A stretch of DNA of 16,075 nt from Sphingobacteriales bacterium (lineage in GTDB: Bacteria; Bacteroidota; Bacteroidia; Chitinophagales; Chitinophagaceae): positions 1-16,075 of the forward strand of contig JAHEFC010000016.1 of the NCBI GenBank assembly GCA_024640385.1. The letters run 5' to 3'. Numbering within the stretch: the stretch's first letter is position 1; the number at the start of each line of letters is the position of its first letter. A program made the translations under genes and the position numbers. The notes under the pieces are model-generated. The model saw nothing but the letters and a program-made list of their open reading frames with translations, had not been told where the DNA came from and searched no databases. Of the stretch, positions 1,251 to 15,164 are shown in pieces.

Positions 1251-1496
1251 TCAATCAATGCTGATCTCGTAGGACTCCATCACAGCATTGGCCAACAATT
1301 TTTTTGTAGCCTCTTCCGCGATCTTACCTGCTTCTTCTTTTGAAGCGGCATCCACCTGCAGGGTGATATGTTTTCCTATCCTTACATCTTCCACCGAACC
1401 AAGGCCCAGGTTATTCAGGCCGCCGAGCACTGCTTTTCCTTGCGGATCAAGCAATTCTTTCAGGGGCATTATATTGATATGAACTGAATAGGTCAT
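1251..1496 (-). CDS. purS: Phosphoribosylformylglycinamidine synthase subunit PurS
   Basis: PurS is the small subunit of the three-part FGAM synthase (PurL-PurQ-PurS), which converts FGAR to FGAM in purine synthesis. It is thought to help pass ammonia from PurQ to PurL. The protein is 81 residues, the usual size. It has the family pattern: a beta strand (YSVHINIMPL), the DPQGKAVLGGLNNLG helix start at about 17-31, then a second strand and helix (VRIGKHITLQVDA; EEAGKIAEEATKKLLAN). The ATG overlaps the pssA stop by 4 bp (ATGA), which suggests translational coupling. purL and purQ are not in the window. This is typical of organisms whose purL is the short form that needs PurS and PurQ. Confidence 0.93.
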   Translation of the reverse strand: MTYSVHINIMPLKELLDPQGKAVLGGLNNLGLGSVEDVRIGKHITLQVDAASKEEAGKIAEEATKKLLANAVMESYEISID

Positions 1497-2254
1497 GCGG
1501 TTTTATTTTGAGTGAGCAAAGATAAAAGAATATAAAGTATGAATATGACGGGAACCGCCATCCACTGAAACAGTATGGCAGTGACCAGGCCAACTCCTGC
1601 CAGCAGAAATTTCGGCCAGTTCTGCTTCAGGCTGTAATTGGTGAATTTAAGGCCCATCAGGGGAAGGGTGGATACCATCAGGTAACTGACCAGTCCAATG
1701 ATCACATACAACACCCATTTATTGAGCAGAAATTCCTGCACGCCAAAATAATTATACAAGGCGATCATCGGTATTGACGCGATCACCAATCCTCCCGCCG
1801 GAGCAGGTACGCCCTTGAAACCATATTTCTGCCCCGGATCGATATTAAAACGGGCCAGTCTCCAGGCTGTTGCTGCTGGCAGCAACAGCGCAGGCAGAAG
1901 AACATAAAAAGGGGTATCCAGGCCATCGGGCTCATAGGCATAAGAAAGGCGTAACATCTGGTACATGATCATCCCTGGAGCCACACCAAAACTTACCACG
2001 TCAGCAAGAGAATCCAGTTGCTTTCCCATTTCAGAGTCAGCCTTCATGATACGGGCCACAAAGCCGTCCAGGAAATCCACCACCGCTGCCATGAAAATAA
2101 AAAAAGCACCCCATTGGACCTTTTCAGGGAGATAGACTTTCCAGTCTTCCCCATTGAAATTCATGATCGACTCCCCAGGTTGGAGAATGAAAATGATCGC
2201 AATACAGCCAAAAACAAGATTAAGAAGAGTGAAAAGATTCGGGATATTCTTCAT
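1493..2254 (-). CDS. pssA: CDP-diacylglycerol--serine O-phosphatidyltransferase
   Basis: This membrane enzyme makes phosphatidylserine from CDP-diacylglycerol and serine, the precursor of phosphatidylethanolamine. The 253-residue protein carries the CDP-alcohol phosphotransferase signature D-x2-D-G-x2-A-R-x8-G-x3-D-x3-D, with D60, D63, G64, A67, R68, G77, D81 and D85; the aspartates bind the metal and D85 is the likely catalytic base. Several hydrophobic segments can be seen (about 7-25, 47-62, 118-133, 155-172, 180-200 and 215-248). The start MKNIPNLFTLLNL is typical of the serine-specific branch. The ATG follows the pepP stop by 10 bp, and the stop overlaps the purS start by 4 bp, which fits a shared transcript. 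Confidence 0.93.
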   Translation of the reverse strand: MKNIPNLFTLLNLVFGCIAIIFILQPGESIMNFNGEDWKVYLPEKVQWGAFFIFMAAVVDFLDGFVARIMKADSEMGKQLDSLADVVSFGVAPGMIMYQMLRLSYAYEPDGLDTPFYVLLPALLLPAATAWRLARFNIDPGQKYGFKGVPAPAGGLVIASIPMIALYNYFGVQEFLLNKWVLYVIIGLVSYLMVSTLPLMGLKFTNYSLKQNWPKFLLAGVGLVTAILFQWMAVPVIFILYILLSLLTQNKTA

Positions 2255-2264
2255 GTGGAGGGAT

Positions 2265-3557
2265 TCATTTTTTCTTCATCAATGATTCGATCTCTTCAAC
2301 CGTGATCGGTATGTTCTTCATGAGATCGATACTGCCGTTCCTTGTGATCCAGAAATTATTTTCGATCCTTACGCCCATCTGCTCTTCTTCGATATAGATA
2401 CCTGGTTCAATGGTAAACACCATTCCGGGTTTTATGGGTTCGGTTTTAGTACCCAGGTCATGAACATCGATCCCAAGATGGTGTGATATGCCATGATAGA
2501 GATATTTCCTGTAAGCCCTGTTTTCAGGGTCTTCATTTTTCACGTCAGACTTCCTGATCAGTCCGATCTTAAGAAACTGTTCAGTAGCCTTGTCTCCCAC
2601 TTTATCAGTATAGTCCATGATGGAAATGCCCGGTTTCAATATGCTCACACAATACCGGTGTATTTCAAGGCATGCATTATACACCTGTCTCTGGCGCTTG
2701 CTGAACTTTCCGTTGACAGGCACAGTACGCGTAAGATCTGCACAATATCCACCGTATTCAGCGCCAAAATCCATCAGCACCATTTCACCGTCCAGGCATT
2801 GTTCGCTGTTGGATACATAGTGCAGTATCCTTGCCCTGTCGCCACTCGCAATAATGGAACCATAGGCAGGTCCGGTAGCCCTGTTCCGCAGGAACTCGTG
2901 ATATATCTCTGCTTCTATCTCATATTCCCATACCCCTGGCCTGATGAAACCAAGTAAGCGCCGGAAGGTTTTATCAGTGATATCCATCGCCACTTTCATC
3001 ACTTCAACTTCTTTGGCAGATTTGATCTGCCTTAATTCCTTCATGATCCTAGCTGATCTCCGGTACTGGTGCAGGGGATACCTGGACTGCATTTCCTGTG
3101 CATAACGGTAATCCCTAACCGCAACCAGGTTTGCTTTCCTGTCATTCTCGTTGGTATTGAGATAGATGGTATCAGCAAGATGGATCATCGGCTGGAGTAA
3201 TCCATCCAGCACATCGAGCCAGGCAATGGTTTCGATACCGGAAATGGATGTTGCCTCTGCCTTTCTCAGTCTTTTGCCATCCCATTTTTCTTTCAGTTCA
3301 TTGGGCCTCACCAGAACCAGCACCTCCCTGAATTTCGGGTCTGGGTTGCCAGGAAACAGGATCAGCATGGTATCTTCCTGTTCTATGCCCGTGAGCCAAT
3401 AGAGGTCGGAATTCTGTTTGAACTTATAGAGTGCGTCACCATTGAGGGGTAATTCGTCGTTGCTATTGAAGACAGCTATGGAATTCTTTTCCATTTTGTC
3501 CACAAATTTTTTCCTGTTTTCGACAAAAATGGAAGGGTCAAGCGGCAGATATTTCAT
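2265..3557 (-). CDS. pepP: Xaa-Pro aminopeptidase (M24B family)
   Basis: Aminopeptidase P removes an N-terminal residue that precedes proline, using two metal ions. The 430-residue protein has an aminopeptidase P N-terminal domain (about 5-140) and a C-terminal pita-bread domain. The five metal ligands are recognisable: D263 in LMDFGAEYGG, D274 in CADLTRT, H359 in HGISHHLG, E384 in FTIEPGIY and E399 in GVRIEN. Companion histidines H355 and H366 (DVHDLG) are also present. An open reading frame continues upstream to 3812, but that extension is a translated heptamer repeat of KGERRK-like and SRLSP-like character. It gives 515 residues, much too long for the family. The ATG at 3557 yields MKYLPLDPSIFVENR, the expected start. 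The gene heads the pepP-pssA-purS-rsmI cluster. Confidence 0.93.
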   Translation of the reverse strand: MKYLPLDPSIFVENRKKFVDKMEKNSIAVFNSNDELPLNGDALYKFKQNSDLYWLTGIEQEDTMLILFPGNPDPKFREVLVLVRPNELKEKWDGKRLRKAEATSISGIETIAWLDVLDGLLQPMIHLADTIYLNTNENDRKANLVAVRDYRYAQEMQSRYPLHQYRRSARIMKELRQIKSAKEVEVMKVAMDITDKTFRRLLGFIRPGVWEYEIEAEIYHEFLRNRATGPAYGSIIASGDRARILHYVSNSEQCLDGEMVLMDFGAEYGGYCADLTRTVPVNGKFSKRQRQVYNACLEIHRYCVSILKPGISIMDYTDKVGDKATEQFLKIGLIRKSDVKNEDPENRAYRKYLYHGISHHLGIDVHDLGTKTEPIKPGMVFTIEPGIYIEEEQMGVRIENNFWITRNGSIDLMKNIPITVEEIESLMKKK

Positions 3558-3584: not shown

Positions 3585-3753
3585 GAGGCGAGGGGCGAGA
3601 GGTGAGAGGCGAGAGGTGGAAGGCGAGAGGCGAGAGGCGAGGGGCGAGGGGCGAGAGGTGGAAGGCAGCCCGTTGCATTTATTGATCGATGCCTTTCGCC
3701 TCTCGCCTCTCACCTTTCGCCTCTCGCCTTTCGCCTTTCGCCTTTCGCCTTTT
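3585..3753. repeat. Heptamer tandem array with inverted copy (period-7 element)
   Basis: The left arm (3585-3668) is 12 consecutive 7-bp units of consensus GRGGYGA. The first is GAGGCGA at 3585, the last a diverged AAGGCAG. After a 22-nt spacer (3669-3690) the right arm (3691-3753) has nine 7-bp units of consensus GCCTYTC, the reverse complement in rotated form. The stretch 3594-3624 matches the reverse complement of 3691-3721 at 28 of 31 positions. A transcript from either strand could fold into a long imperfect hairpin. The element ends 27 bp before the pepP start codon. The units encode no plausible protein; because 7 is not a multiple of 3, every frame gives the same 7-residue cycle. A function is not known to me. 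Confidence 0.9.
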
Positions 3754-3778
3754 AACTTCGCCTCTAATTCACGTATCT

Positions 3779-3812
3779 CAAAAAAATATCCCAATCCTTT
3801 CGATATTGGCAA
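3779..3812 (-). promoter_or_regulatory. Weak candidate promoter for the pepP operon
   Basis: On the minus strand a TTG (3812-3810) is followed by a 21-bp spacer and TATTTTTTTG (3788-3779). This resembles the TTTG / TAnnTTTG promoter, with two extra T residues in the T run. If real, the pepP transcript would begin near 3773 and carry the entire heptamer inverted repeat in its 5' leader. The other candidate, TATCTTG (3570-3564), lies so close to the ATG that the message would be nearly leaderless and the repeat untranscribed. Confidence 0.25.
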
Positions 3813-3833
3813 TTCAATCGCTGTCTGTCATTT

Positions 3834-3953
3834 TTAGCACTCGTTAGCAACATAAAAATTTAGATTTCATTCAACCTTGACGGCCATAACTTGGCAACGA
3901 GCTAACAATCGTTAGTATTTTTAGATTTCTCCAAAAACTAAAACCTATTAGCA
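3834..3953 (+). promoter_or_regulatory. Cluster of candidate operator sites upstream of pckA
   Basis: This AT-rich stretch lies 85-204 bp upstream of the pckA start. It has three TTAGCA copies (3834-3839, 3844-3849, 3948-3953), the first two exactly 10 bp apart. It also has an inverted repeat CTAAC-N4-GTTAG (3902-3915). A two-part direct repeat consists of CGTTAG followed by TTTAGATTTC (3842 and 3859; 3910 and 3920). Such spacing is compatible with binding by a transcription factor controlling this gluconeogenic gene. That role is inferred from position and symmetry only; no regulator family is identified. Apart from these sites and the heptamer element, nothing gene-like was seen in 3558-4037. 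Confidence 0.35.
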
Positions 3954-3985
3954 TAAATATTTAAATAATTGCCGGCATTTTGGCA

Positions 3986-4018
3986 TTTGTTTAAAGAAGT
4001 TTTAAATAATTACATTTG
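3986..4018 (+). promoter_or_regulatory. pckA promoter, Bacteroidota type
   Basis: A -33 TTTG (3986-3989), a 21-bp spacer and a -7 TACATTTG (4011-4018) match the Bacteroidota sigma-ABfr consensus TTTG-N19-21-TAnnTTTG. Transcription would begin near 4024, leaving a leader of about 14 nt before the ATG at 4038. The promoter lies inside the upstream extension of the reading frame, which supports the later start codon. Confidence 0.65.
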
Positions 4019-4037
4019 GCGCCTCATAAGAGTACCT

Positions 4038-5648
4038 ATGTCGATTCCGGATACTTTACAACTTATTCCCAGGCACAAGCTGATGCAGTTTGGGCTGAAG
4101 TATGCTGACGATATCCACTACCAGCTGGCGCCGGAAGAACTGGTCGAAGCAGTACTTCGCAACAGGCAGGGCGAACTGAGCAACACCGGTGCACTGGTGA
4201 TTAACACCGGAAAATTCACTGGCCGGTCTCCGAAAGACAAATTCATTGTCAGGGATCATATTACTGAGAACCTGGTGAACTGGAACGAGTTCTCCATTCC
4301 AATCTCTGAAAAGCATTTTGATATTGTTTTCAAAAAAGTCACTGATCACCTGGCTTCAAGGAAAGACCTCTGGATAAGGGACTGTTATGCCTGCGCCGAT
4401 CCTGAATTCAGGGTAAACTTGAGGGTGATCAACGAAAAGCCAGCCAATAATCTTTTTGCCTATAACATGTTTCTCAGGCCTAAGGATGAGGAACTGGAGG
4501 GCTTCACACCTGACTGGCATGTGTTCTCTGCCCCAGAACTCCAGCTTGATCCGGAAGAATGCGGCACCAGGCAGTCCAATGCCGCCCTGATCAGTTTCCG
4601 CCATCGCATGATCCTTATAGCCGGGACAGGTTATACAGGTGAAATGAAAAAAGGCATATTCACGGTGCTCAACCTGGTTCTGCCGGTTGAAAGAAATGTG
4701 CTCAGCATGCACTGCTCAGCCAACATGGGCCAAATGGGCGATACCGCTTTATTCTTCGGCCTGAGCGGTACAGGAAAAACAACACTGAGTGCAGACCCTT
4801 CCAGGCAACTGATCGGAGATGATGAACATGGATGGCACGATGGAGGCATATTTAATTTTGAAGGAGGTTGTTATGCCAAATGCATTGACCTCACTGAAGA
4901 AAAAGAGCCAGATATATACCAGGCCATCAGGCAGGGTGCTCTTGTAGAAAACACCCGGTTTTTTGAAGGCACCAACTCGATAGATTTCACTGACGCAGGC
5001 ATAACCGAAAACACAAGGGTGTCTTATCCCATCAGTTATATTCCCAATGCACTTGAACCTTCCGTAGGAGAACACCCGAAAAATATCTTTTTCCTCACCT
5101 GCGATGCCTATGGCGTGCTGCCTCCCATTTCAAAGCTGACACCGGAACAGGCCATGTACCAGTTCATCAGTGGCTATACGGCAAAAGTTGCCGGTACAGA
5201 AACAGGTGTGACCGAGCCGAAAGCCACGTTCAGCGCATGTTTTGGCGCACCATTCCTGCCATTGCATCCCGGCAGGTATGCGTCTATGTTGGGAGAAAAA
5301 ATGAAGACCCATAAGGTCAACGTCTGGCTTGTCAATACGGGATGGACGGGAGGTGCCTATGGCAAAGGAAAAAGAATGAAGCTTGACCTTACCAGGGCAA
5401 TGATCACTGCTGCACTGGAAGGGTTATTGGACGATGTTGAATATCGCCAGTTACCCGTTTTCAACCTTTCAATCCCCGTTTCCTGCCCTGGCGTACCTGC
5501 CGAATTGCTGGATCCAGAGGCAACATGGGAAGATAAAAATGCTTACGATATGCAAGCCAGGGCGCTTGCCGGTCTGTTCATAAAGAATTTCGTGAAATAT
5601 GCGAAGGACGTTGACAAAAACATCCTCACCGCATCTCCAACTCCTTAG
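4038..5648 (+). CDS. pckA: Phosphoenolpyruvate carboxykinase (ATP)
   Basis: PckA decarboxylates and phosphorylates oxaloacetate with ATP to give phosphoenolpyruvate, the entry step of gluconeogenesis. The 536-residue protein matches the ATP-dependent class (about 530-540). Visible motifs are GRSPKDKF (62-69, oxaloacetate binding), GYTGEMKKG (198-206) with the metal-ligand lysine, the histidine of SMHCSANMG (H225), the kinase-1a P-loop GLSGTGKTT (241-249), kinase-2 LIGDDEHGW (259-266) and the adenine-site RVSYPISYI (327-335). The ATG at 4038 is chosen over the farther in-frame ATG at 3969 because the promoter lies between them and MSIPDTL... gives the normal length. It is probably monocistronic: its own promoter is upstream and a strong terminator begins 27 bp after the stop. 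Confidence 0.97.
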   Translation: MSIPDTLQLIPRHKLMQFGLKYADDIHYQLAPEELVEAVLRNRQGELSNTGALVINTGKFTGRSPKDKFIVRDHITENLVNWNEFSIPISEKHFDIVFKKVTDHLASRKDLWIRDCYACADPEFRVNLRVINEKPANNLFAYNMFLRPKDEELEGFTPDWHVFSAPELQLDPEECGTRQSNAALISFRHRMILIAGTGYTGEMKKGIFTVLNLVLPVERNVLSMHCSANMGQMGDTALFFGLSGTGKTTLSADPSRQLIGDDEHGWHDGGIFNFEGGCYAKCIDLTEEKEPDIYQAIRQGALVENTRFFEGTNSIDFTDAGITENTRVSYPISYIPNALEPSVGEHPKNIFFLTCDAYGVLPPISKLTPEQAMYQFISGYTAKVAGTETGVTEPKATFSACFGAPFLPLHPGRYASMLGEKMKTHKVNVWLVNTGWTGGAYGKGKRMKLDLTRAMITAALEGLLDDVEYRQLPVFNLSIPVSCPGVPAELLDPEATWEDKNAYDMQARALAGLFIKNFVKYAKDVDKNILTASPTP

Positions 5649-5675
5649 CGGTCTTAATCGATTGTTTGCTTTAGC

Positions 5676-5707
5676 GACCCTGCTAGTCATAGCGGGGTCT
5701 TGTTTTT
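5676..5707 (+). terminator. Intrinsic terminator of pckA
   Basis: GACCCTGCTA (5676-5685) pairs with TAGCGGGGTC (5690-5699) as a 10-bp stem containing one T-G wobble, closed by the 4-nt loop GTCA. It is followed by TTGTTTTT. This is a classic rho-independent terminator for rightward transcription. The opposite strand lacks a T run after the stem, so it should act in one direction only. Confidence 0.88.
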
Positions 5708-5708
5708 A

Positions 5709-5804
5709 ATGTGGGGGGAATGTGATGAATGTGGTGAATGTGGTGAATGAAATGTGATAAATGTGCAATTCCCACATTCCCACATCCATCACATTTATCA
5801 CATT
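5709..5804. repeat. Nine-bp-period tandem array with inverted copy
   Basis: The left arm carries AATGTG anchors at 5709, 5719, 5728, 5737, 5751 and 5760, plus a broken AATGA at 5746, mostly 9 bp apart (AATGTGATG, AATGTGGTG). The right arm carries CACATT or CACATC at 5773, 5781, 5790 and 5799. The inner 15 bp of the left arm (5751-5765) are the perfect reverse complement of 5790-5804, with a 24-nt spacer between. The last unit abuts the TAG stop codon of the deoxynucleoside kinase gene (5805-5807). The element begins two bases after the pckA terminator. No T run follows the hairpin on the minus strand, so it is not a standard terminator for the kinase gene. Confidence 0.88.
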
Positions 5805-6440
5805 CTAAAACAGTCCGTAAAGCTGCGAATCAATCTTGCGAATGATTTCGCCCAGGTGCTCATCATTCTCCGCGAACTTATTCTTATCCACGTTGATCAC
5901 GAGCAGCGGACCTTCTTTATACCCTTCGATCCACTTGTTGTAGTATTCATTCAGCCTCTTGAGATAATCGAGGCGTATATTCTCTTCATATTCCCGGCCC
6001 CTTTTCTGTATCTGGCCCACCAGGGTTGGTACTGAAGCCTGCAGGTAGATCAGCATGTCCGGCGGTTGTATCATTTGTTTGAGGGTCTGGAAGAACTGGA
6101 AATAATTATCAAAATCCCTCTTGCTCATCAAACCCATTTCATGCAGGTTGGGCGCAAAAATATGCGCATCTTCATAAATGGTCCGATCCTGTATAACCGT
6201 TTCAGTTCCCCTCGAAATATCTACCAGTTGATTCAGCCTGCTGTTCAGAAAAAAAATCTGCAGATTGAAACTCCACCTTGGCATGTCTTCATAAAAGTCA
6301 AACAGGTAGGGGTTATGATCCACATCTTCAAACTGGGGAATCCAGCGGTAATGCTTGCTCAGCAGTTCGGTAAGGGTTGTTTTGCCCGCACCGATATTGC
6401 CGGCAATGGCAATATGTTTAGGTTTCTTAGCTTTCGCCAT
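5805..6440 (-). CDS. Deoxynucleoside kinase (dGK/dCK/dNK family)
   Basis: This cytosolic enzyme phosphorylates a deoxynucleoside with ATP in nucleotide salvage. The 211-residue protein has the P-loop GNIGAGKTT (14-22), a W/R substrate segment (MPRWSFNLQIFFLNSRL, 53-69), the QDRTIYED motif (84-91) with catalytic-site D85-R86 in place of the usual E-R-S, and the lid KRGREYE (146-152). These fit the deoxyadenosine/deoxyguanosine kinase branch, but the base preference cannot be settled by eye. The start MAKAKKPKHIAIAGNIG is the ATG at 6440. The gene lies 49 bp downstream of trpS on the same strand and may be cotranscribed. A near match to the -7 element (TATCTTTA, 6483-6476) is a weak alternative promoter. 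Confidence 0.88.
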   Translation of the reverse strand: MAKAKKPKHIAIAGNIGAGKTTLTELLSKHYRWIPQFEDVDHNPYLFDFYEDMPRWSFNLQIFFLNSRLNQLVDISRGTETVIQDRTIYEDAHIFAPNLHEMGLMSKRDFDNYFQFFQTLKQMIQPPDMLIYLQASVPTLVGQIQKRGREYEENIRLDYLKRLNEYYNKWIEGYKEGPLLVINVDKNKFAENDEHLGEIIRKIDSQLYGLF

Positions 6441-6489
6441 AAAAGATTCAGATAATTGTTAAGGCCAGAGGTTTTTAAAGATAAAGCTT

Positions 6490-7488
6490 TTAGTAATATT
6501 TAAGCCCAATAGCCTGGCGCACTATTTCCATGGTAGCAACAGCGCTTTTTCCCGCTTTCGCGGCTCCTTTCTCCATTACCTCCCTGAGGAGTGTATGGTT
6601 GTTCCTGATGGCTTCAGCTTTTTCGCGGATCGGAGCAATAAATTTCACCATGTCCTCGGCCAGCTGTTTTTTCATATCACCATATCTAATCGTGCAATTA
6701 TTATAATCTGATTCAAACTTTGCAGTCACCTCCTCAGCTGATACAAGCTTCATCAGTAGGAAGATATTCTCTATATAATCAGGCTTGGGTGAATTGGGTT
6801 CTGTTGGACCAGCATCTGTTTTAGCCTTCATCACTTTCTTCCTGATCAGCTCATCTTCATCGGCGAGGTAAATGGTAGCGTTCTGATTTTCGCTTTTACT
6901 CATTTTGCCCGTTCCGTCAAGACTGGGAACTTTTATAAGCTGTTCACCGTAGTTGAACGCCTTGGGTTCAGGGAAAACATCTCCATACCTGTGGTTGAAA
7001 CGGTTGGCAAAATTCCTGGCCATTTCAAGGTGTTGCTCCTGGTCTTTCCCCACCGGAACCAGGGTGGCCCTGTGAATAATAATGTCCGCCGCCTGCAACA
7101 CGGGGTAAGTAAGTAGCCCTGCATTGGCATTATCGGGCTGCTGCCGTACCTTCTCTTTAAATGTAGCTGTTTTCTCCAGTTCGCCCTTGTAGGCAAGCAT
7201 ATTAAGATAAAGGTAGAGTTCGGCGGTTTCGCGTATATGGCTCTGGCAGTACAATGCCGCTTTATCCGGGTCCAGCCCGCAAGCAATGTATTCAGCCAGT
7301 ACCCTGGTCACATGGTTCTTCAGTTCTTTTGTATCTGGGTGAGTAGTAAGCGAATGGAGGTCGGCCACCATAAAATAACAGGTGAACTCATCCTGCATCT
7401 TCACATAATTCTTTACCGCTCCAAAATAATTCCCCAGGTGCAGGAAACCCGTAGGGCGGATCCCGCTCATGACTATTGCATTTTCCAT
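6490..7488 (-). CDS. trpS: Tryptophanyl-tRNA synthetase
   Basis: TrpRS charges tRNA-Trp with tryptophan using ATP. The 332-residue protein is a class I synthetase. It has the HIGH-like HLGN (17-20) within SGIRPTGFLHLGN, the Trp/ATP-site segment VPVGKDQEQHLEMAR (144-158), and the KMSKS loop (195-199) in DGTGKMSKSE. Length and motif spacing match the bacterial enzyme. The ATG at 7488 follows a TATATTTG promoter element by only five bases. gatC diverges on the other side of a 112-bp intergenic region, and the deoxynucleoside kinase gene follows downstream on the same strand. Confidence 0.96.
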   Translation of the reverse strand: MENAIVMSGIRPTGFLHLGNYFGAVKNYVKMQDEFTCYFMVADLHSLTTHPDTKELKNHVTRVLAEYIACGLDPDKAALYCQSHIRETAELYLYLNMLAYKGELEKTATFKEKVRQQPDNANAGLLTYPVLQAADIIIHRATLVPVGKDQEQHLEMARNFANRFNHRYGDVFPEPKAFNYGEQLIKVPSLDGTGKMSKSENQNATIYLADEDELIRKKVMKAKTDAGPTEPNSPKPDYIENIFLLMKLVSAEEVTAKFESDYNNCTIRYGDMKKQLAEDMVKFIAPIREKAEAIRNNHTLLREVMEKGAAKAGKSAVATMEIVRQAIGLKYY

Positions 7489-7493
7489 GGCGG

Positions 7494-7501
7494 CAAATAT
7501 A
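7494..7501 (-). promoter_or_regulatory. Candidate -7 element of trpS, very close to the start codon
   Basis: The minus strand reads TATATTTG, an exact TAnnTTTG match, ending 5 bp before the ATG at 7488. Transcription normally begins 5-7 bp after this element, which would place the first nucleotide at or next to the start codon. No clear -33 TTTG is seen at the standard spacing. Confidence 0.45.
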
Positions 7502-7588
7502 AAGATATTGTGAGGATGCTTCCCTCAGCCAGTTGTAACAGGCTTTGACCATTTAGCACTATTAGTGAGTTATAAACCCCAATTCAGC

Positions 7589-7596
7589 TATTTTTG
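7589..7596 (+). promoter_or_regulatory. Candidate -7 element of gatC, very close to the start codon
   Basis: TATTTTTG matches TAnnTTTG exactly and ends 4 bp before the gatC ATG at 7601. A start site at the usual distance would make the message leaderless or nearly so. The -33 region has no strong TTTG at 19-21 bp. It mirrors the arrangement of trpS across the same intergenic region. Confidence 0.45.
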
Positions 7597-7600
7597 CACC

Positions 7601-7891
7601 ATGGAAGTGAACGACGAACTGGTTTCGCACCTTGCCAATTTAAGCCGGCTCCATTTCAACGAAGAAGAAAAGAATGAGATCAGGGAAGACCTCCAGAGGA
7701 TGATCAGTTTTGTGGACAAACTGAACGAACTCAATACGGAAGGCCTGGAACCGGTATTGCACATGAGTACGGAGGTCAACCGCCTTAGAACGGACCTGGT
7801 ACAAGGCTCAGTGACAGCTGAAGAGGCATTGAAGAATGCAACCGATCCTTATGGCCATTTTTTCACGGTACCCAAAGTGATCAGAAAATAA
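7601..7891 (+). CDS. gatC: Asp-tRNA(Asn)/Glu-tRNA(Gln) amidotransferase subunit C
   Basis: GatC is the small scaffold subunit of the GatCAB complex, which amidates mis-charged Glu-tRNA(Gln) or Asp-tRNA(Asn). The 96-residue protein matches the usual length of about 95. It shows the N-terminal helix VSHLANLSRLHFNEEEKNEI, the mid-region MISFVDKLNELNTEGLEPV, and the C-terminal segment FFTVPKVIRK, which corresponds to the conserved phenylalanine-x-VPKV(I/L) end. The frame is open to an ATG at 7565, but the ATG at 7601 gives the family start and follows a -7 element. gatA and gatB are not in the window. An ABC ATPase gene begins 9 bp after the stop, probably on the same transcript. Confidence 0.93.
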   Translation: MEVNDELVSHLANLSRLHFNEEEKNEIREDLQRMISFVDKLNELNTEGLEPVLHMSTEVNRLRTDLVQGSVTAEEALKNATDPYGHFFTVPKVIRK

Positions 7892-7900
7892 ATCAAGGCA

Positions 7901-8602
7901 ATGAGCCAGGTAATCAAGTTAGAAGATATCAAGAAAAGTTATTTCATGGGCCGGCAGGAGCTCCAGGTACTGAAAGGTATCAGCCTCTCCATCAACCGCA
8001 ATGAATATATAGCCCTTATGGGCCCCTCAGGATCCGGCAAGAGTACTTTGATGAATATACTCGGATGCCTGGACTCCCCCTCCAGCGGAAAATACATCCT
8101 GAACGGAAATGATGTAAGCATGATGGCCGATAATGAGCTTGCGGAAATCAGGAATAAGGAAATCGGATTTGTGTTTCAACAGTTCAACCTATTGCCCAGG
8201 TTGACAGCACTTGAAAATGTTGCCCTCCCCCTGGTGTACGCAGGTATTTCAAAAAAACAAAGAACTGAAATGGCCATGGAGGTGATCAGGAAAGTTGATC
8301 TGCTGGACAGAAGCCACCATAAACCCAATGAACTATCTGGAGGTCAGTGCCAGCGTGTTGCCATTGCCCGCGCACTGGTAAACAACCCATCTATCATTCT
8401 GGCCGATGAACCAACCGGCAACCTGGATACCAGAACTTCATATGAGATCATGAATATTTTCAGCAAGATCCATGAAGACGGAAATACTGTTGTGTTGGTT
8501 ACACACGAGGAAGACATTTCCAACTATGCCCACCGGGTGATCCGACTCCGGGACGGACTGGTGGAAACCGACAAGACCAAGCAATCCGTTTTAGCCGGCT
8601 GA
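7901..8602 (+). CDS. ABC transporter ATP-binding protein, MacB/LolD type
   Basis: This cytoplasmic ATPase would drive an FtsX-like or MacB-like membrane partner. The 233-residue protein has the Walker [10 protein letters not shown] (41-49), Q-loop in [10 protein letters not shown] (90-99), signature [15 protein letters not shown] (145-159), Walker B IILADEP (165-171), D-loop GNLD (173-176) and H-loop VTHEE (200-204). All residues needed for ATP hydrolysis are present. A cysteine (C150) replaces the common glutamine right after the LSGGQ core. No permease gene lies next to it, so the substrate is unknown; export of a peptide, lipoprotein or small toxic compound would fit the family. It lies 9 bp downstream of gatC, and the cobalamin adenosyltransferase gene follows after 66 bp. 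Confidence 0.92.
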
Positions 8603-8668
8603 CCGTATCTTTTTCAAATTCCGAACAAAAACAGGGTTTCAGGCATTAACCATGCAGGAACAACCGCT

Positions 8669-9229
8669 ATGTCAATGAAAATTTATACTAAAACTGGTGA
8701 TAAAGGTACTACGTCCCTGATCGGGGGCACCAAGGTGCCTAAATCCCATTTACGGATAGAAGCTTACGGCAGTATTGATGAACTCAATTCTTACCTTGGA
8801 CTTTGCAGGGACCTGGTGCAAGATGACCAGACCAGGAAAACCATACTGGAAATACAAGACAGGCTTTTTACCATTGGATCCTCCCTGGCCTGCGACCCTA
8901 TTAAGGAGCCCAAAATGAGGATCCCCGACCTCAGGGGAGAAGATATCCTACAACTGGAAAAGGAGATAGACAGGATGAACGACGTACTGCCTCCAATGAA
9001 GTCATTTATTTTGCCAGGCGGGCACCCGGTGGTGTCCCATCTCCATATAGCCAGGTGTGTGTGCAGAAGGTCTGAAAGGGCTTGTGTGAGGCTGGAGCTC
9101 GAAAGTCTTGAAGTTGACCCCTTGATACTTCAATACCTGAACAGGCTGAGCGATTATCTTTTTATGTTGGCCCGATATGCCGCACAGTTATTGAAGGTGG
9201 AGGAACTGCCCTGGAAAGCCAGGATTTAA
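8669..9229 (+). CDS. pduO: PduO-type ATP:cob(I)alamin adenosyltransferase
   Basis: The enzyme transfers the adenosyl group of ATP to cob(I)alamin and makes adenosylcobalamin. The 186-residue protein shows the family features in order: the ATP-binding N-terminus [14 protein letters not shown] (7-20), [15 protein letters not shown] (31-45), FILPGG (113-118), [15 protein letters not shown] (126-140) with the conserved arginines, and [15 protein letters not shown] (156-170). AGGA about 10 bp upstream may serve as a ribosome-binding site. An in-frame ATG at 8675 (MKIYTKTG) is an equally plausible start. The stop overlaps the stop of the convergent lolD gene by 4 bp. Adenosylcobalamin-dependent partners such as methylmalonyl-CoA mutase are not in the window. 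Confidence 0.93.
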
Positions 9230-9876
9230 ATAATGTTTCCGTCTTTCATGTGTATTACTCTGTCGCTCATACCGGCAAGTTCCTCATTGTGGGTAACTAT
9301 CAGGAAGGTCTGGTTGAACTCATTCCTTAATCGAATAAAAAGGTTGTGCAACTCTCTGGCATTGGCCGAATCGAGGTTTCCGGTTGGTTCATCAGCAAAT
9401 ACGATCCTGGGTTGATTGATCAAGGCCCTGGCTACCGCCACCCGCTGCTGTTCACCTCCCGATAGTGCCCCCGGCTTGTTCTGCATCCTGTCTTGCAAAC
9501 CCAAAAGCCCCAACAGCAACTTCGCCCTTTCCTCCACTTCTTTTTTCTTCTTACCCGCTATCCAGCCAGGTATAGAAACATTTTCTATGGCAGTGAACTC
9601 AGGTAGCAGATGATGGAATTGGAATACAAAGCCTATATTATCGTTCCTGAACTTCGCCAATGCCTTGCCCTGAAGCGTGTCGACCCGCCGGTCAGCAATA
9701 CTGATACTGCCCTCATCAGCCTGGTCAAGCGTACCCAAAATATGTAGCAAAGTGCTTTTACCTGCACCCGAGGAGCCCACAATACAAACAATTTCGCCGT
9801 CAGATACCGTAAGATCCACACCTTTCAGCACTTTCAGATCGCCATAGGACTTTACAATATTCTCAGCTTTAAGCAT
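9226..9876 (-). CDS. lolD: Lipoprotein-releasing ABC transporter ATPase LolD
   Basis: LolD powers the LolC/E-type complex that releases lipoproteins from the inner membrane for delivery to the outer membrane. The 216-residue protein has the Walker [10 protein letters not shown] (34-42) in the family-typical [21 protein letters not shown]-loop in [12 protein letters not shown] (84-94), signature [15 protein letters not shown] (138-152), Walker B IVFADEP (158-164), GNLDSANA (166-173) and H-loop VTHNEE (194-199). The frame is open upstream to 10014, but that extension is translated repeat-like DNA with no ABC homology. The ATG at 9876 gives [13 protein letters not shown], the expected start. The membrane subunit is not adjacent; Bacteroidota often encode it elsewhere. 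Another LolD/MacB-type ATPase is possible, but the motif wording favours LolD. Confidence 0.9.
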
Positions 9877-9900
9877 ATAAACAACAATCAAAAGGTTAAA

Positions 9901-9990
9901 CCTCCGCGTCTCTCTATCCTCTCGTCTCTGCGTTCCAACAAAAATGCACAAAAAAGCGACGCCGAGGAGAAGGGAGCCCCGGGAATGTGA
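9901..9990. repeat. Degenerate short-unit inverted repeat (possible period 8)
   Basis: A pyrimidine-rich run at 9901-9936 can be read as 8-bp steps (CCTCCGCG, TCTCTCTA, TCCTCTCG, TCTCTGCG). After an A-rich spacer comes a purine-rich run (9954-9977: GCGACGCC, GAGGAGAA, GGGAGCCC) that partly resembles its reverse complement but needs gaps. A small perfect inverted repeat, GAGAA-TTC-TTCTC, follows at 9980-9992. It lies 24 bp upstream of the lolD start, as the period-7 element does for pepP. It looks like a decayed member of the same class, but the match is much weaker than for the other three. Confidence 0.4.
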
Positions 9991-10039
9991 GAATTCTTCT
10001 CTTAGGTTCTCCAACTGCCATTTCCTGTTAATAATAGGA

Positions 10040-10070
10040 TTTGGTAATTCGGATACAAAAATTACTTTTG
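10040..10070 (+). promoter_or_regulatory. Promoter of the DUF2795-type gene
   Basis: TTTG (10040-10043), a 19-bp spacer and TACTTTTG (10063-10070) match the Bacteroidota promoter consensus in sequence and spacing. Transcription would start near 10076, giving a leader of about 17 nt before the ATG at 10093. This is the best promoter match in the window. Confidence 0.75.
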
Positions 10071-10092
10071 CGGAAATTTAAAGTGTTAACCG

Positions 10093-10314
10093 ATGTTTTG
10101 GACCCTAGAATTAGCCTCTTACCTTGAAGACGCACCGTGGCCCGCCACTAAAGATGAACTGATCGATTACTCCATCCGGAGTGGTGCACCTATCGAAGTG
10201 GTAGAAAACCTCCAGGAACTGGAAGATGAAGGCGAGATCTATGAAGGAATCGAAGACATTTGGCCAGATTATCCCAGCCAGGAAGACTTCTTTTTCAACG
10301 AAGATGAATACTGA
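10093..10314 (+). CDS. Small acidic DUF2795-type protein
   Basis: A 73-residue protein that I recognise as the short DUF2795-type protein widespread in Bacteroidota; its function is unknown. The core reads WPATKDELIDYSIRSGAP followed by VVENLQELEDEGEIYEGIEDIW (about 16-57). This matches the DUF2795 pattern of a helix with ELIDYA..xGAP, a second helix, and a Y.s..DiW motif. The C-terminus is very acidic (SQEDFFFNEDEY). There is no signal peptide or membrane segment, so it is probably cytosolic. It has its own strong promoter and diverges from lolD. Its TGA directly abuts the stop of the AsmA-like gene on the other strand, with no bases between. Confidence 0.85.
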   Translation: MFWTLELASYLEDAPWPATKDELIDYSIRSGAPIEVVENLQELEDEGEIYEGIEDIWPDYPSQEDFFFNEDEY

Positions 10315-13300
10315 TCAGAACAGGTCCGGGGGTAGGTCATATTTTCCCAGGCCCTTATAGAACTTCTTCACCTGCTTTCCATTTTTCTTTACGCCAAGGT
10401 TGGTCATCAAACCATTCAGTGACATTCTGGACCAGAAATTGAAGACTGATTTTTCTTTCAGCCTTTCTGTGTAAATGATCCCTGTGTTGTTGTTCCGGCT
10501 TTTAACAAACACATTGGCCAGCCAGGAAACTATACCCCGCTTTTTATTCTGTTCATTAAGCACCGAAACTTTCAGGTTATTATAGTTCATGTCCATGGAG
10601 CCGTATGCCAGATATTCATTGCCCTTTACCCTCATGGCTACACTCCGGATCAGTCCTTTATCTACCCTTACATTGTTAAGCGGGATCATAAGCCTGTTGA
10701 GTTCCTGCATTTCCATACCACCCATTCTCACAGTCATGAGGAATCCCTGGATACTATCTTCATAAGACTCCCTGTATAAAAATCTCAACTGTCCCCGTCC
10801 CATCAGCTTGCCGGTAATATCGATCCGTATACTGTCATCTCTCCTGATATCAAAATTCCTGATGTTAGTTACATACCCGTTCAACTCTGTAAAATAAATA
10901 GTTCCCTCCTTTTCCGTTTTCTCATCGATCACGTTATGCCAGATCACAGAATTATTCAGGTTAACGGAATCTACTTTCAGCGGAAATTTCATCCTGTTGA
11001 ACATCCTGGCCAGCATAGGCCTGTATTTCACGGTATCATCCGCCATTCTTTTATCACGCTCTACTTTGAAATCAAGCGGATCAATAGTAAGCTTTCTAAT
11101 ATATACCGTTGTATCCCTGTTGTAAATAACAGGCTTGAGATCATCGGCCCTCAACTTCCCCGTACTCAGTGTGATATAGTCTTTTTCAAAGGGCTGACCA
11201 GCAAAATATTCATCTCTTGGAATCCGGTTGAAAATATTAAGACTGTCCCAGCGCAGGAACGCTTCTTCCGTATTTACCTCAACATTATAAATTCCTATTT
11301 CTTCTTTTGGGGTATTGAATTTAAAACTTCCCGGCTGTATGGTGACTGGTGGAAGCTTCAACGCAGTCTGAATGATCGAATCTTTCTCTAATACCAGTCC
11401 TTTGACCTGCCCCAACTTGATTCCCCCTGTTTTGATCTCCATCGTATCGTTATCATGTATCCTGCCTACATCTACCGCACCAATGTCAAAATGTGCAATA
11501 CTCATCACGGGAGGCAGGCTGTCTTTCTTTAAAAAAGAAGTGATGGCTGTTGAATTAATACCTCCTTTGAAGATCTCTTTCAACCTGGTGCTCATTCTGA
11601 TGCCATCCAGTTCTGACCTTAGATTTTCAAATCTCAGGCTCTTGCTTTCCGTTGTCTTTTCCCATATCAGATTTTCACCTCTTATCGTTTCTCCACCTGT
11701 TATAATGTCGATCTGTTCATCCGGTCTGATCAGGCTTACATTGATCACTGGTTCATCAAGATTGAAATTGTAGACCTGGTAATATTGCAAAGACCCGCCC
11801 TCGTTTGTGCCCGCTTTTTTTCCTGCCTGAAGGGCAAGATTGATCTTAGGCCTGACCAGCGATAATTCGTCAAGTACAACTCTTGCGGGGTCCACATTCC
11901 TGAATTGCCCTTTGAAGTTTATCTCCTTTGTGGTCAGGTTCAGTTTCATGTCTGGCTTGTCTACGGTAATTTCCGCTTCATTTAATACAGAAAGACCCGC
12001 TGAATTCAAATCCGCTTCCCTGCTTTTTAAACTGAAATCAGGACTTTTAATGAAAATATCATCGGCAATTACTTTAGACTGTTCCCATTCATAAAAGCCC
12101 GGATGAATACTGTGCCCTATGATCACCGCAGAATTCACTAAAGCTTTCCCTTCCAGCTTACTGCTATTGAACCTGACCACAATATTCCCCAGGGTCATTG
12201 AATCCACCAGGCCCAGCAATTTGTTAGGATCCTCAATTGACCTGGCCTTCTTTCCTGAACTGTCAAGGTTTATGTCAAGCGTTCCGGATTCTACATCCAC
12301 ATGGCTGAAGTGCCAGACAACATCGTTTCCGAAAGGATTCAATTCGTCAGATGCCACTATGGTAACATTGTTCAGATCTGCACTTATCTTCCTGTGATTC
12401 AGGAAGCCCTGCACCCTGGCAAAATTCAGGACTTTGTTATTGTAATCAACGGCTCCTGCATATAACTGTAATTCCAATCTGGGGGTAATGAAGAAGAATC
12501 TCTTCATATTAACATCCCTGAAACTGGAAAGAAAGCTTTCCATATCGGGAGCTTTCAATGCCGCCCGGGTGAGGATCACAGCTGAGAACTCCCTGGTTCC
12601 CATAGAAACCCCGGTATCCTTGTTGTTCTGTACGGTCACTGTAGCATTGTTCAACACCATCTTTTCTACATCCACATAAGGCTTTAATTCTTTAAGACCC
12701 TCCAATGAAAATTCTGAACCCGGTTTTTGTGCAGGCAGTTTTTTGAGTGTGAGTTCCGGAGACTCCATTCTGATCTGCTTAATGGATGCTTTCTTGTCAA
12801 TCACTTCTTCCAGTGAAATTCCTTCAATGAACAAACTGGGTATGAAAAGTTTTGCTCCTTCTCCCAATTTGCTCCGACGGGTTGAAACGATCATGTAATT
12901 ATTAAGCTCCATCGTATTCCCCTTCACTTTCAGGTGTGAGAACGATGACTGGAATCGATTGTCTGATCCGCGATCCTGGAACTCACGTACACCCAGCCCA
13001 AGGTCGCCGACTTTGACCGGGTTTTTTCTTTCAGGACGAATGGACAGATCATTGATAACAAGGCTGTCGCCGATCAATGAATTATTCCTTTCCTGCCCGG
13101 GATTATTATTGATGATGGCTGCCCGGATATACTTTGCAGAGAAATGACTGATCTCAAGGTCTCCTATCACATCCCAGAATTTAAGTTTCTTCAGATCAAC
13201 AGTATCCGGCTGTCTTCTTTTTTGCTTTCTGTCTGCAGAAGATTCAAAATAAAGATTTCCATTGTTTGCGATCAGGGTATCCAGTTTAATGATACCTGAA

Positions 13301-14139
13301 TCGAGCCATGCCGGCCAGTCAATATTCCTGATACGTATCGTATCCAGCGCCACATCAAAACTGTCGCGCAATGGCAATGCCGAACGCTGGTTGATCTCAA
13401 ACTTGCCAACATCCACATAATGCGCCTGGTTGTCCCATTCGAAATAATCAACCTGCAGATTGAGCAGGCTGTCTGGGATCCTGAGCGCCGGATTTTTAAT
13501 TGAGAGTTTTATGTCGGCCCTGATCTGTTCTATATCGTTGGCATGAAATTCCGGAATCACCAGGTTATTGACACTGAGGTCTACGTGTTCAATATTGAAA
13601 TAGTTGGATTTTCCGGGGATGGGATAATACCTGAACGAGCCGTTCATGATATTGCATTGATCTACGCTTAGCGCATTCAGGAATTTCATGGCATTCGCCT
13701 GCATCCTGCTCACCTGCACATGCAACTCCGCTTCATCCTGTCTGCCTTTCCTGATCACATTCGTTCTGGCAACTACCGAAGGGTTGACTATCCTGATCTC
13801 ATTTACGGAAACGGCACTGTTGAGGAACAAAGGAAGGATCGATTCAAGGCTCAGGTACAGCGAGTCTACGGAGACTTCATATTCGTTATCCAGTCCCGGT
13901 TTAAGCGGAGCTAACCTGACTTTGCTGAGTTTGAGATATGGACTGAAATATTCAAATTTCAGGTGATGATAAGTAAGCTGGTATTCGCCATCAGAAAGTT
14001 GTTCTACCAGCGTTGGCAGTATCCTTTTGATCTGTGAGGTCACAAAAAAATGAATAGCAGAAAAAAACAGTATCGGTACCAATACTGCCAGCACCAGGGG
14101 GCGGAATTTTTTTCTTTTGCTATTCGTCTGATTATCCAA
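10315..14139 (-). CDS. Large AsmA-like (DUF748/YdbH-like) envelope protein
   Basis: A 1274-residue protein with a basic N-terminus (NSKRKKFRP), one transmembrane helix (about 13-33), and a long beta-rich periplasmic region. Repeated phrases of the kind VDSLYLSL..., VNEIRIVNPSV, IKQIRMESPELTLKK and LDELSLVRPKINLALQ recur at intervals, each a strand-turn-strand with a NP, SP or RP turn. This pattern is typical of AsmA/DUF748 proteins, whose members can form a hydrophobic groove thought to carry phospholipid between membranes. Family placement is by pattern, and lipid transport is inference. The start is a TTG at 14139: an in-frame stop occurs 13 codons upstream with no ATG between, and the next internal ATG comes near residue 148, past the membrane helix. 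The gene follows fabI and an inverted-repeat element on the same strand. Confidence 0.75.
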   Translation of the reverse strand: MDNQTNSKRKKFRPLVLAVLVPILFFSAIHFFVTSQIKRILPTLVEQLSDGEYQLTYHHLKFEYFSPYLKLSKVRLAPLKPGLDNEYEVSVDSLYLSLESILPLFLNSAVSVNEIRIVNPSVVARTNVIRKGRQDEAELHVQVSRMQANAMKFLNALSVDQCNIMNGSFRYYPIPGKSNYFNIEHVDLSVNNLVIPEFHANDIEQIRADIKLSIKNPALRIPDSLLNLQVDYFEWDNQAHYVDVGKFEINQRSALPLRDSFDVALDTIRIRNIDWPAWLDSGIIKLDTLIANNGNLYFESSADRKQKRRQPDTVDLKKLKFWDVIGDLEISHFSAKYIRAAIINNNPGQERNNSLIGDSLVINDLSIRPERKNPVKVGDLGLGVREFQDRGSDNRFQSSFSHLKVKGNTMELNNYMIVSTRRSKLGEGAKLFIPSLFIEGISLEEVIDKKASIKQIRMESPELTLKKLPAQKPGSEFSLEGLKELKPYVDVEKMVLNNATVTVQNNKDTGVSMGTREFSAVILTRAALKAPDMESFLSSFRDVNMKRFFFITPRLELQLYAGAVDYNNKVLNFARVQGFLNHRKISADLNNVTIVASDELNPFGNDVVWHFSHVDVESGTLDINLDSSGKKARSIEDPNKLLGLVDSMTLGNIVVRFNSSKLEGKALVNSAVIIGHSIHPGFYEWEQSKVIADDIFIKSPDFSLKSREADLNSAGLSVLNEAEITVDKPDMKLNLTTKEINFKGQFRNVDPARVVLDELSLVRPKINLALQAGKKAGTNEGGSLQYYQVYNFNLDEPVINVSLIRPDEQIDIITGGETIRGENLIWEKTTESKSLRFENLRSELDGIRMSTRLKEIFKGGINSTAITSFLKKDSLPPVMSIAHFDIGAVDVGRIHDNDTMEIKTGGIKLGQVKGLVLEKDSIIQTALKLPPVTIQPGSFKFNTPKEEIGIYNVEVNTEEAFLRWDSLNIFNRIPRDEYFAGQPFEKDYITLSTGKLRADDLKPVIYNRDTTVYIRKLTIDPLDFKVERDKRMADDTVKYRPMLARMFNRMKFPLKVDSVNLNNSVIWHNVIDEKTEKEGTIYFTELNGYVTNIRNFDIRRDDSIRIDITGKLMGRGQLRFLYRESYEDSIQGFLMTVRMGGMEMQELNRLMIPLNNVRVDKGLIRSVAMRVKGNEYLAYGSMDMNYNNLKVSVLNEQNKKRGIVSWLANVFVKSRNNNTGIIYTERLKEKSVFNFWSRMSLNGLMTNLGVKKNGKQVKKFYKGLGKYDLPPDLF

Positions 14140-14176
14140 ATGCGGTCTACTTGTAATTTGAAAGGTTTCGCATACT

Positions 14177-14206
14177 CAAATTACATCAATAATGCCGCCA
14201 ATGCAA
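14177..14206 (-). promoter_or_regulatory. Candidate promoter of the AsmA-like gene
   Basis: On the minus strand TTG (14206-14204), a 20-bp spacer and TAATTTG (14183-14177) approximate the Bacteroidota promoter, with one base missing between TA and TTTG. A start near 14170 would leave a leader of about 31 nt before the TTG start codon. It lies between the inverted-repeat element and the gene. Confidence 0.35.
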
Positions 14207-14220
14207 GAACAGGCCAATAT

Positions 14221-14312
14221 CAGAATGCCAGATAGCCAGAATGACAGAGAGGTAGAACTTCTGAATGTCAAACAATCCTTCCTCTCTTACTCTCCGGCTC
14301 TCTGGCCCTCTG
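14221..14312. repeat. Octamer tandem array with inverted copy (period-8 element)
   Basis: The left arm (14221-14252) is four 8-bp units: CAGAATGC, CAGATAGC, CAGAATGA, CAGAGAGG. After a 28-nt spacer, the right arm (14281-14312), read as reverse complement, is CAGAGGGC, CAGAGAGC, CGGAGAGT, AAGAGAGG. Both arms are exactly 32 bp and agree at 24 of 32 positions, unit for unit. The right arm ends two bases from the fabI stop codon (14315-14317). The element lies downstream of fabI and upstream of the candidate promoter of the AsmA-like gene. No T run follows, so it is not a typical terminator. Confidence 0.85.
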
Positions 14313-15124: not shown

Positions 15125-15138
15125 AATAAGTCAAAATT

Positions 15139-15146
15139 CAAAAGTA
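15139..15146 (-). promoter_or_regulatory. Candidate -7 element of fabI
   Basis: The minus strand reads TACTTTTG, an exact TAnnTTTG match, 14 bp upstream of the fabI ATG in the 40-bp gap after recN. The same placement relative to the start is seen at pckA and the DUF2795-type gene. No TTTG was found at the -33 position, so read-through from recN may also contribute. Confidence 0.4.
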
Positions 15147-15164
15147 AAAAGTAAAAATAGCTAA

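Follow-up and report, generated by a model that had tools for sequence, protein, structure and literature searches.

Small non-coding repeats with a preferred arm length at gene edges in a Chitinophagaceae genome

Several intergenic sites in a 16,075-nt stretch of contig JAHEFC010000016.1 (assembly GCA_024640385.1), which comes from an uncultured Sphingobacteriales bacterium of the Chitinophagaceae and is referred to here as the window, carry short tandem units, a spacer and then the same units inverted, with a different unit at each site. How can one design recur with sequences that look unrelated? The original prediction, made from the letters of the window, answered that shared design without shared sequence speaks against descent. 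This conclusion did not hold, since each window unit (GAGGCGA/AAAGGCG, AATGTGRTG and CAGAGAGT) has a dispersed family with further copies elsewhere in the same genome; the units look unrelated because a single window samples several families. Small non-coding repeats of this kind are spread over the whole genome, and the window sites are among them. The best explanation, to which we assign a probability of roughly 0.4 and which is not proved, is that they are non-autonomous repeats in which the arm would be the copied unit, moved by a putative activity.

The window was analysed by Tandem Repeats Finder (TRF), an inverted-repeat finder, a scan for five matching triplets (five-anchor scan) and by eye. 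The following elements were found, with coordinates given as positions in the window:

3585..3667, plus strand: site A left, purine-rich array, unit GRGGYGA, period 7, about 11 units (TRF, inverted repeats, five-anchor scan)
3690..3757, minus strand: site A right, pyrimidine-rich array of inverted units (TRF, inverted repeats)
5711..5765, plus strand: site B left array, AATGTGRTG, period 9 (TRF, inverted repeats, five-anchor scan)
5775..5805, minus strand: site B right array, inverted, reaching the stop codon of the deoxynucleoside kinase (dNK) gene (inverted repeats; dNK by family search)
14222..14256, plus strand: site C left arm, five AGA anchors with 5-nt linkers, 35 nt (five-anchor scan)
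14277..14311, minus strand: site C right arm, inverted, 35 nt (read by eye; no TRF or inverted-repeat call)
15126..15157, plus strand: site E, single arm, AAAAGTC family, period 7, between FabI and the next gene (TRF, five-anchor scan)

The predicted design with several unit lengths is thus real at three sites. Site A (3585-3757) consists of two period-7 arrays (3585-3658, TRF score 99; 3691-3752, score 96) whose inverted arms (3600-3667 and 3690-3757) are 81% complementary with 22 nt between them; the left array exceeds the usual five-anchor arm in length. Site B (5711-5805) contains a period-9 array (5718-5749, TRF score 57) and arms (5751-5765 and 5790-5804) complementary in 15/15 positions across 24 nt. 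Site C is weak in TRF (scores 35 and 48) and absent from the inverted-repeat finder output; the five-anchor scan recovered its left arm (14221-14256), and in its right arm, traced by eye along the AGA phase, two of the five anchors are off by one base. The predicted spacers of A and B agree with these values, while the 28 nt given for site C become 20 nt in the AGA phase. A possible fourth member (site D, 9901-9990) was not confirmed: it showed no TRF array, no inverted repeat and no five-anchor arm, and its order by eye, pyrimidine then purine, is opposite to that of the other sites. Site E, a five-anchor array, was absent from the original prediction.

Counts were made on two samples of the source genome (4.08 Mb in 585 contigs, 94% complete). 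A 465-kb sample containing the contig of the window was chosen by contig number only; a 521-kb sample (about 13% of the genome) includes four contigs picked for matches (C82, C301, C63 and C255) and underlies the counts of arm length, position, polarity by pair, one-armed arrays beside stop codons, mirrored unit order, spacers, variability, U-tracts and five-anchor arms. A scan by period and inverted repeat, as suggested with the original prediction, gave counts far above the Markov control in the 465 kb: 84 TRF rows (score at least 40, at least 2.8 copies, period up to 20, overlaps unmerged) were obtained against 0 in a shuffled copy, the Markov controls here and in the five-anchor scan being single copies. 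Row densities per Mb were 105 at period 7, 36 at period 8 and 17 at period 9, with none at periods 5, 6 and 10-13. An inverted match (score at least 28, within 100 bp) accompanied 50 of the 92 merged arrays of period 6-10, compared with 9/92 in the best of 20 random-flank draws. The five-anchor scan, which requires five matching triplets only, gave 66, 41 and 13 sites at periods 7, 8 and 9 in the 521 kb against 3, 4 and 3 in a second-order Markov copy, and was also raised at periods 4 (13 against 6), 6 (20 against 2) and 14 (17 against 1).

Similar repeats in other Bacteroidota, which the original prediction had mentioned with reservation, are indeed present in the loci of named relatives, where 61 of 149 arrays had an inverted match and 32 of 80 loci were free of arrays. 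As the named loci are centred on pckA, orthologous elements (e.g. the seven AATTACG loci) are counted repeatedly in pooled counts, which affects the pairing and mirror tests, arm lengths, arm sequences, anchor variability and neighbour polarity. Two relatives of the same genus were sampled at 200 kb each: G015 reached 25 rows per Mb for period 7 and 5 for period 9, G007 had none at periods 7-9, and none of the 12 arrays in these two samples had an inverted match.

The arrays of the source genome, grouped by eye, fall into period-7 families AACCTGC (the commonest), AAAAGTC, GAGGCGA and GGATTCC, period-8 families CAGAGAGT and AATTAGCG/AATCCGCC, and the period-9 family AATGTGRTG. AACCTGC, which lies outside the window, gave 246 and 274 overlapping matches with at most one mismatch (520 in total); of the 29 relatives that complete the set of 30 genomes searched, G002 had one match and 28 had none. 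The commonest family is therefore private to the source genome among the relatives searched, bar one match. Other Chitinophagales carry the families AATTACG, AAGCTAC, TTGACGG, AATTTGAA, AATGTGCT and GTGAGAC. One-armed heptamer arrays of G015 (L032, L034; AACCTAC/AACTTAC, up to 10.4 copies, no inverted pairs) are one or two bases off AACCTGC. Eleven-mer arrays were seen in Chitinophaga (AGACAGGAAGG and AGGAATAAAAC; L278:12518 in G030, L279:8756 and 14089 in G031), where two species differ in unit or length at a shared site.

The arm was shown to be the preferred unit, with a length close to 4p+3 nt for p = 7 or 8; it is built of five like triplets, the anchors, and four linkers whose length is fixed. 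Among 158 period-7 arrays from the source genome and the named loci, 29 measured exactly 31 nt, 13 measured 30 nt and 8 measured 32 nt; for 58 period-8 arrays of the same origin the numbers were 22 at 35-37 nt and 7 at 30 nt, and the 19 period-9 arrays are too few for a judgement of length. Shorter (19-27 nt) and longer (46-99 nt) arrays are also present. The 31-nt arms combine triplets and linkers as CAG-GTTG, AAA-GTCA, AAT-CCGG, AGG-CGAA, AAT-TACG and AGT-TGGC, the 35-nt arms as AGA-GAGTC and AAT-TTGAA. Per-position variation among internal copies was 0.021-0.077 in anchors and 0.114-0.231 in linkers, 3-5 times less in anchors, with the phase picked within one base in their favour.

Pairs are usually matched, though unlike arms occur, and the strand which runs into the gap is purine-rich. 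There are 37 paired elements in the 521 kb. In 77 paired elements, orthologous loci included, the left arm held more G than C in 65, less in 7 and equal amounts in 5, and more purines in 68. Neighbouring arrays (within 120 bp; polarity taken as purine excess plus G excess) were purine-rich then pyrimidine-rich (RY) in 81 cases and the reverse (YR) in 3. This order was found in 64 of 74 homologous inverted pairs (2 YR, 8 unclassed) and in 17 of 32 pairs called heterologous (1 YR, 4 RR, 3 YY, 7 with an unclassed arm), the neighbour-pair and unit-order data including loci L191-L220, which were selected for perfect CAGGTTG runs. Eight of the 17 heterologous RY pairs are partly complementary (scores 13-23) and hence not clearly unlike. 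We also rejected L055:18350, whose right 'arm' lies by eye in a likely coding start, and L178:116, where the supposed partner of the arm is a piece of its own spacer. L211 and L214 probably represent a single locus that appears at two contig ends. After this recount six clearly unlike RY loci stand, three within the source genome (L171:4558, L184:1896, L211:1388) and three elsewhere (L085:17468, L091:13437, L095:21400), with L149:21012 as a YR counter-case. By eye, L201 and L215 also have unlike arms, and another case is L177:18283, whose left arm is unclassed. In one-armed arrays beside a single stop codon the G-rich strand was the sense strand in 23 of 29, and by eye 3 of the 6 exceptions also conform when compared with paired family members.

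The placement at gene edges noted in the original prediction was confirmed: site A begins 27 bp from the start codon of the Xaa-Pro aminopeptidase (M24) gene (taken at 3557), site B reaches the stop codon of dNK and site C lies 3 bp from that of FabI. Across the 521 kb, 60 of 76 sites lie in gaps with at least one neighbouring gene ending there and three more at contig ends, while 7 lie between divergent genes and 5 inside called open reading frames (ORFs); the calls follow a crude longest-ORF scheme (93% 'coding') which puts even site A inside an ORF. Sites lie at a median of 6 bp from an adjoining stop codon (n=84 flanks) and 37.5 bp from an adjoining start codon (n=54 flanks). Compared with the expectation from gene-pair counts, sites were more frequent in convergent gaps (21 vs 11.4) and less frequent in codirectional (39 vs 44.4) and divergent ones (7 vs 11.2; p=0.006). 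Paired sites made up 12/21, 15/39 and 4/7 of these, respectively; the idea that paired arms are a by-product of convergent genes was dropped, as 12/21 convergent and 15/39 codirectional sites do not differ significantly (Fisher p=0.19). Family search identified the genes neighbouring the window sites as Xaa-Pro aminopeptidase, phosphoenolpyruvate carboxykinase, dNK, enoyl-acyl carrier protein reductase, RsmI and PurS. A place of the source genome in the Chitinophagales is probable: the best named relative by pckA was a 'Sphingobacteriales' metagenome-assembled genome (73%), followed mostly by Chitinophagaceae.

What, then, is copied? The arm, and not the unit or the whole hairpin, is the recurring thing. 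Five of 19 four-unit CAGGTTG arms read TTG-TTA-TTG-TTG (position agreement z=2.65, p=0.03), although the choice of some of these loci for perfect TTG runs should disfavour the TTA variant. Within pairs, unit order was mirrored beyond composition in the pooled tests (z=1.9, 3.7, 3.7 and 2.8). Since loci agree in part in the order of their variant units, and the two arms of a pair mirror each other in it, copying of whole arms is partly shown. Among 26 spacers of at least 12 nt from the source genome one pair was clearly shared beyond array pieces: L152:4069-4124 and L178:180-248 differ in unit family but have similar terminator-like hairpins between their arms, AGGTTGTC...GACAACCT, a pattern with only these two matches in the 521 kb. 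The 16 longest spacers, compared with the 521 kb, retrieved only themselves, array pieces and short matches with E values of at least 0.04, so that no copying of spacers from elsewhere was detected. Outside the source genome, TTGACGG elements at three different sites (L107:13466, L109:10078, L119:3882), unlike the families of the source genome, have spacers whose palindromic cores resemble one another: the core is GTGCGAATTCGCAC in L119 and one to three bases off in the other two.

The same gap can be filled differently in different genomes. The gap that separates rsmI from the gene upstream of it (purS in the window, elsewhere assigned by eye) was placed in 44 loci, 20 of which hold a period 7-9 array (TRF score at least 30, counted without shuffled control). 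The units are AATTACG in 7 loci, AATTTGAA-like in 4, AAGCTAC in 3 and GTACGAG-like in 2, with GTTGAAC, ACATTTAC, CATCCGCA and CATTTGCA in one locus each; in others, including the window, L111, L090, L093, L095, L121 and L123, the gap is short. The gap of site B is empty in L107 and holds TTGACGG arms in L109 and L119. Comparison of orthologous sites, also suggested with the original prediction, was made between Flavihumibacter cheonanensis and F. fluminis (about 92% identical): the presence of sites was kept, with 18 of 19 arrays placed in the partner. Paired arrays keep their length (e.g. 26/26 and 51/51 nt), while most one-armed arrays change (e.g. 21 vs 63 nt), and slippage seems to be active afterwards at the latter. 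One paired element has equal lengths in both species and different right-arm units. A lysine-alanine-rich, by eye H1-like repeat gene (L292:13440-13594, G033) also differs in length between two Flavihumibacter species.

These observations are best explained by non-autonomous mobile repeats which would be REPIN- or MITE-like (miniature inverted-repeat transposable element) in behaviour and not in membership. A putative trans-acting activity that handles five-anchor arms would copy them to gene edges, and selection against gene damage may leave arms at ORF edges. At these edges the strand that enters the gap is the purine-rich one, and arms often form an inverted pair of one family around a site-specific spacer; later slippage could lengthen single arms, and arm-to-arm correction could keep pairs alike.

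A number of results weigh against this proposal. By the pairing threshold 38 of 71 placed sites of the source genome are one-armed, and its period-8 arrays taken separately (n=29) include 6 at 30 nt beside 9 at 35-37 nt. Tested pair by pair, mirroring fell below p=0.05 in 1 of 66 cases, a test of low power. A mobile hairpin should carry its spacer, whereas same-family spacers in the source genome are unrelated; the only sign of a shared interior of the MITE type is the likeness, seen by eye, of the three TTGACGG spacer cores. In Flavihumibacter, the 18 of 19 arrays with both flanks together in the partner have arrays there too, and no target-site duplication, clean recent insertion or empty/filled pair was seen in the compared loci. 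No mobilising enzyme was found among Y1 transposase and RVT_1 matches. Y1_Tnp was without match in the array-bearing genomes G033, G034, G035, G036, G037 and G073 (6 of 18 further genomes), and RVT_1, with matches in six of 30 genomes, had none in G032-G036, G069 and G072 (7 of 15 further genomes) nor in the source genome, which is 94% complete and was searched with the RVT_1 profile only, so that divergent reverse transcriptases could be missed. The expectation of the original prediction that no transposase or catalogued family stands behind the sites was borne out in searches for REP (repetitive extragenic palindromic) transposases, RVT_1 and Rfam families, the last with 0 matches at gathering score within the window.

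Plain simple-sequence repeats are an unlikely alternative in which slippage favours 7-9-nt units and quasi-palindrome template switching makes the second arm. Orthologous one-armed arrays differ in length (21 vs 63 bp, 12 vs 50 bp), variants are mirrored within pairs in the pooled tests, and by eye the left arm of L117 matches its own right arm better than orthologues do, all of which slippage would account for; it would not account for the preferred arm length, the recurrence of one unit at very many places or the heterologous pairs, and inverted complementarity into the flanks was not significant (2.88/10 vs 2.70 ± 0.16). Hairpin-templated slippage as the sole generator, a mechanism offered in the original prediction, is thus disfavoured by arm length, unlike-arm pairs and the lack of significant complementarity beyond the arms, and the last result also led us to reject foldback copying of host flank; an extension at L160 (AAAAATTT), tried as a foldback copy, is probably due to chance or a terminator feature. 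It is likewise doubtful that the arm serves as a five-site platform for an RNA- or DNA-binding protein at untranslated regions, with selection keeping anchors, polarity and position. Conserved anchors, placement at stop codons, the sense-strand G-richness of 23/29 one-armed arrays and the retention of an orthologous stem across seven loci (paired in 89.9% of cells) are consistent with such a function. Against it, the several anchors per genome would require several proteins, the commonest family is lineage-private and covariation is weak: the doubly changed cells were reached in 19/500 shuffles and the pairs with such a change in 234/500, and covariation of this Chitinophaga stem was not retained as support.

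The inward purine polarity of unlike arms at the six clear loci, together with one-armed sites and site-specific spacers, would be explained by telomerase- or DRT10-like addition of templated repeats at the 3' ends of chromosome breaks, with both ends lengthened by purine-rich units before they are joined, and the 3-nt anchor plus linker parallels the A-B-A' template described for DRT10 (PMC12632851). We regard this as improbable, as RVT_1 has no match in the source genome nor in 7/15 other genomes, linkers vary within an arm, the order of variants along whole arms is partly conserved and clear heterologous cases are few. Still more speculatively, arms might be scars of a repeat-adding activity which runs about four rounds on 3' break ends by genes, with a 3-nt realigning anchor and a family-specific trans template; five-anchor length, inward purine polarity including unlike arms, and site-specific spacers would be its equally conjectural signature. 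If so, bacteria of several phyla would have a telomerase-like end addition carried out by something other than a recognised reverse transcriptase. Movement of REPs or REPINs (hairpin-forming REP pairs) by a RAYT (REP-associated tyrosine transposase) is largely refuted as a general driver and thus most improbable. One of the two Y1 transposases of the source genome is RAYT-like (191 aa; NF047646, 66.4 bits, below the cut-off of 80) and is flanked by tandem plus inverted repeats, but these are a different 15-mer; moreover, Y1_Tnp has no match in six array-bearing genomes, and G020 and G026, whose Y1 genes are of about 180-190 aa and so resemble RAYTs in length, hold one period-7 array each in small samples (64 and 80 kb). 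The 15-mer, CCTACCTCCAAGGTG, lies at L244:1255-1303 and 1970-2040 (contig C82) around the RAYT-like gene (1309-1884, minus strand) in arms which by eye are near 29 nt, and period-15 copies also occur at L055:7522 and 9777. Bidirectional intrinsic terminators, suggested by long stems beside stop codons and enrichment in convergent gaps, are scarcely to be expected either, given that a U-tract (at least 6 T in 8 nt) was found in 0/74 flanks of the source genome and 1/78 flanks of named loci, that sites also lie between divergent genes and that two spacers hold a separate terminator-like hairpin.

No description of these Chitinophagales repeats was found among the open-licence literature matches listed. 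In cyanobacteria, short tandem heptamers known as STRR (short tandemly repeated repetitive) sequences occur between genes in several families. Heptamers described from Xanthomonas and Nostoc provide the closest comparison. Rehm et al. 2015 (PMC4692102) describe dispersed, intergenic G-rich heptamers, GGGAATC in Xanthomonas and GGGGA(C/T)T in Nostoc, without known function and with a preference for four units tied to G-quadruplexes. In their account, pairs in convergent orientation number 70 in Xcc and 75 in Xac and only a few in Nostoc, heptamers are under-represented between divergent genes, and one unit type capable of G-quadruplex formation is followed per genome. The present repeats share with these the tandem, intergenic and dispersed units, here with periods 8 and 9 too, the four-unit preference (here a peak at 4p+3 nt) and the convergent inverted pairs (37 in 521 kb). 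Unlike the repeats so described, several families lack G-quadruplex tracts: AAAAGTC, AATTACG, AATTTGAA and AATTAGCG contain no GGG, and in the GG-free families AAAAGTC, AATTACG and AATTTGAA the array length nevertheless has its peak at four units and one further anchor. The present repeats also comprise several families per genome and some unlike-arm pairs, and one gap can be filled by several families. Position, polarity and length are alike, but we do not class them with the repeats of Rehm et al., as families without G-runs fail the G-quadruplex definition.

TAACTGA heptamers, reported by MacGregor 2015 (PMC4679880) from Beggiatoaceae, some cyanobacteria and five Bacteroidetes, are likewise intergenic arrays near gene edges with a patchy distribution; as described for Beggiatoa, they differ in having a single unit, one inverted case in 170 sets and a position mostly upstream of start codons. 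Like REPINs and RAYT-associated repeats (PMC3116915, PMC3733652), the present elements are dispersed, intergenic and palindromic and lack a gene of their own. REPs are characterised as tagged short single palindromes of 20-40 bp (PMC3733652), whereas the arms here are tandem arrays and are not palindromic individually; furthermore, RAYT presence does not track the arrays, and the sole RAYT-like gene of the source genome is flanked by a different 15-mer. To the cDNA of DRT10, with its repeats of anchor and linker (9 nt in Eco3DRT10), there is a formal likeness only, as that cDNA is described as protein-primed and single-stranded (PMC12632851) and RVT_1 has no match in the source genome.

Families without G-runs, at periods 7 and 8, share the length preference of the Xanthomonas and Nostoc heptamers, and therefore the four-unit rule requires a cause other than G-quadruplexes. 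The count of five anchors must come either from an enzyme or from a binding site under selection. Repeats of preferred length, fixed polarity and exchangeable sequence fill one gap in different genera, which makes for a sharp and testable pattern. Taken together, the repeats resemble a little-studied kind known from Xanthomonas and cyanobacteria, and they are spread as families.

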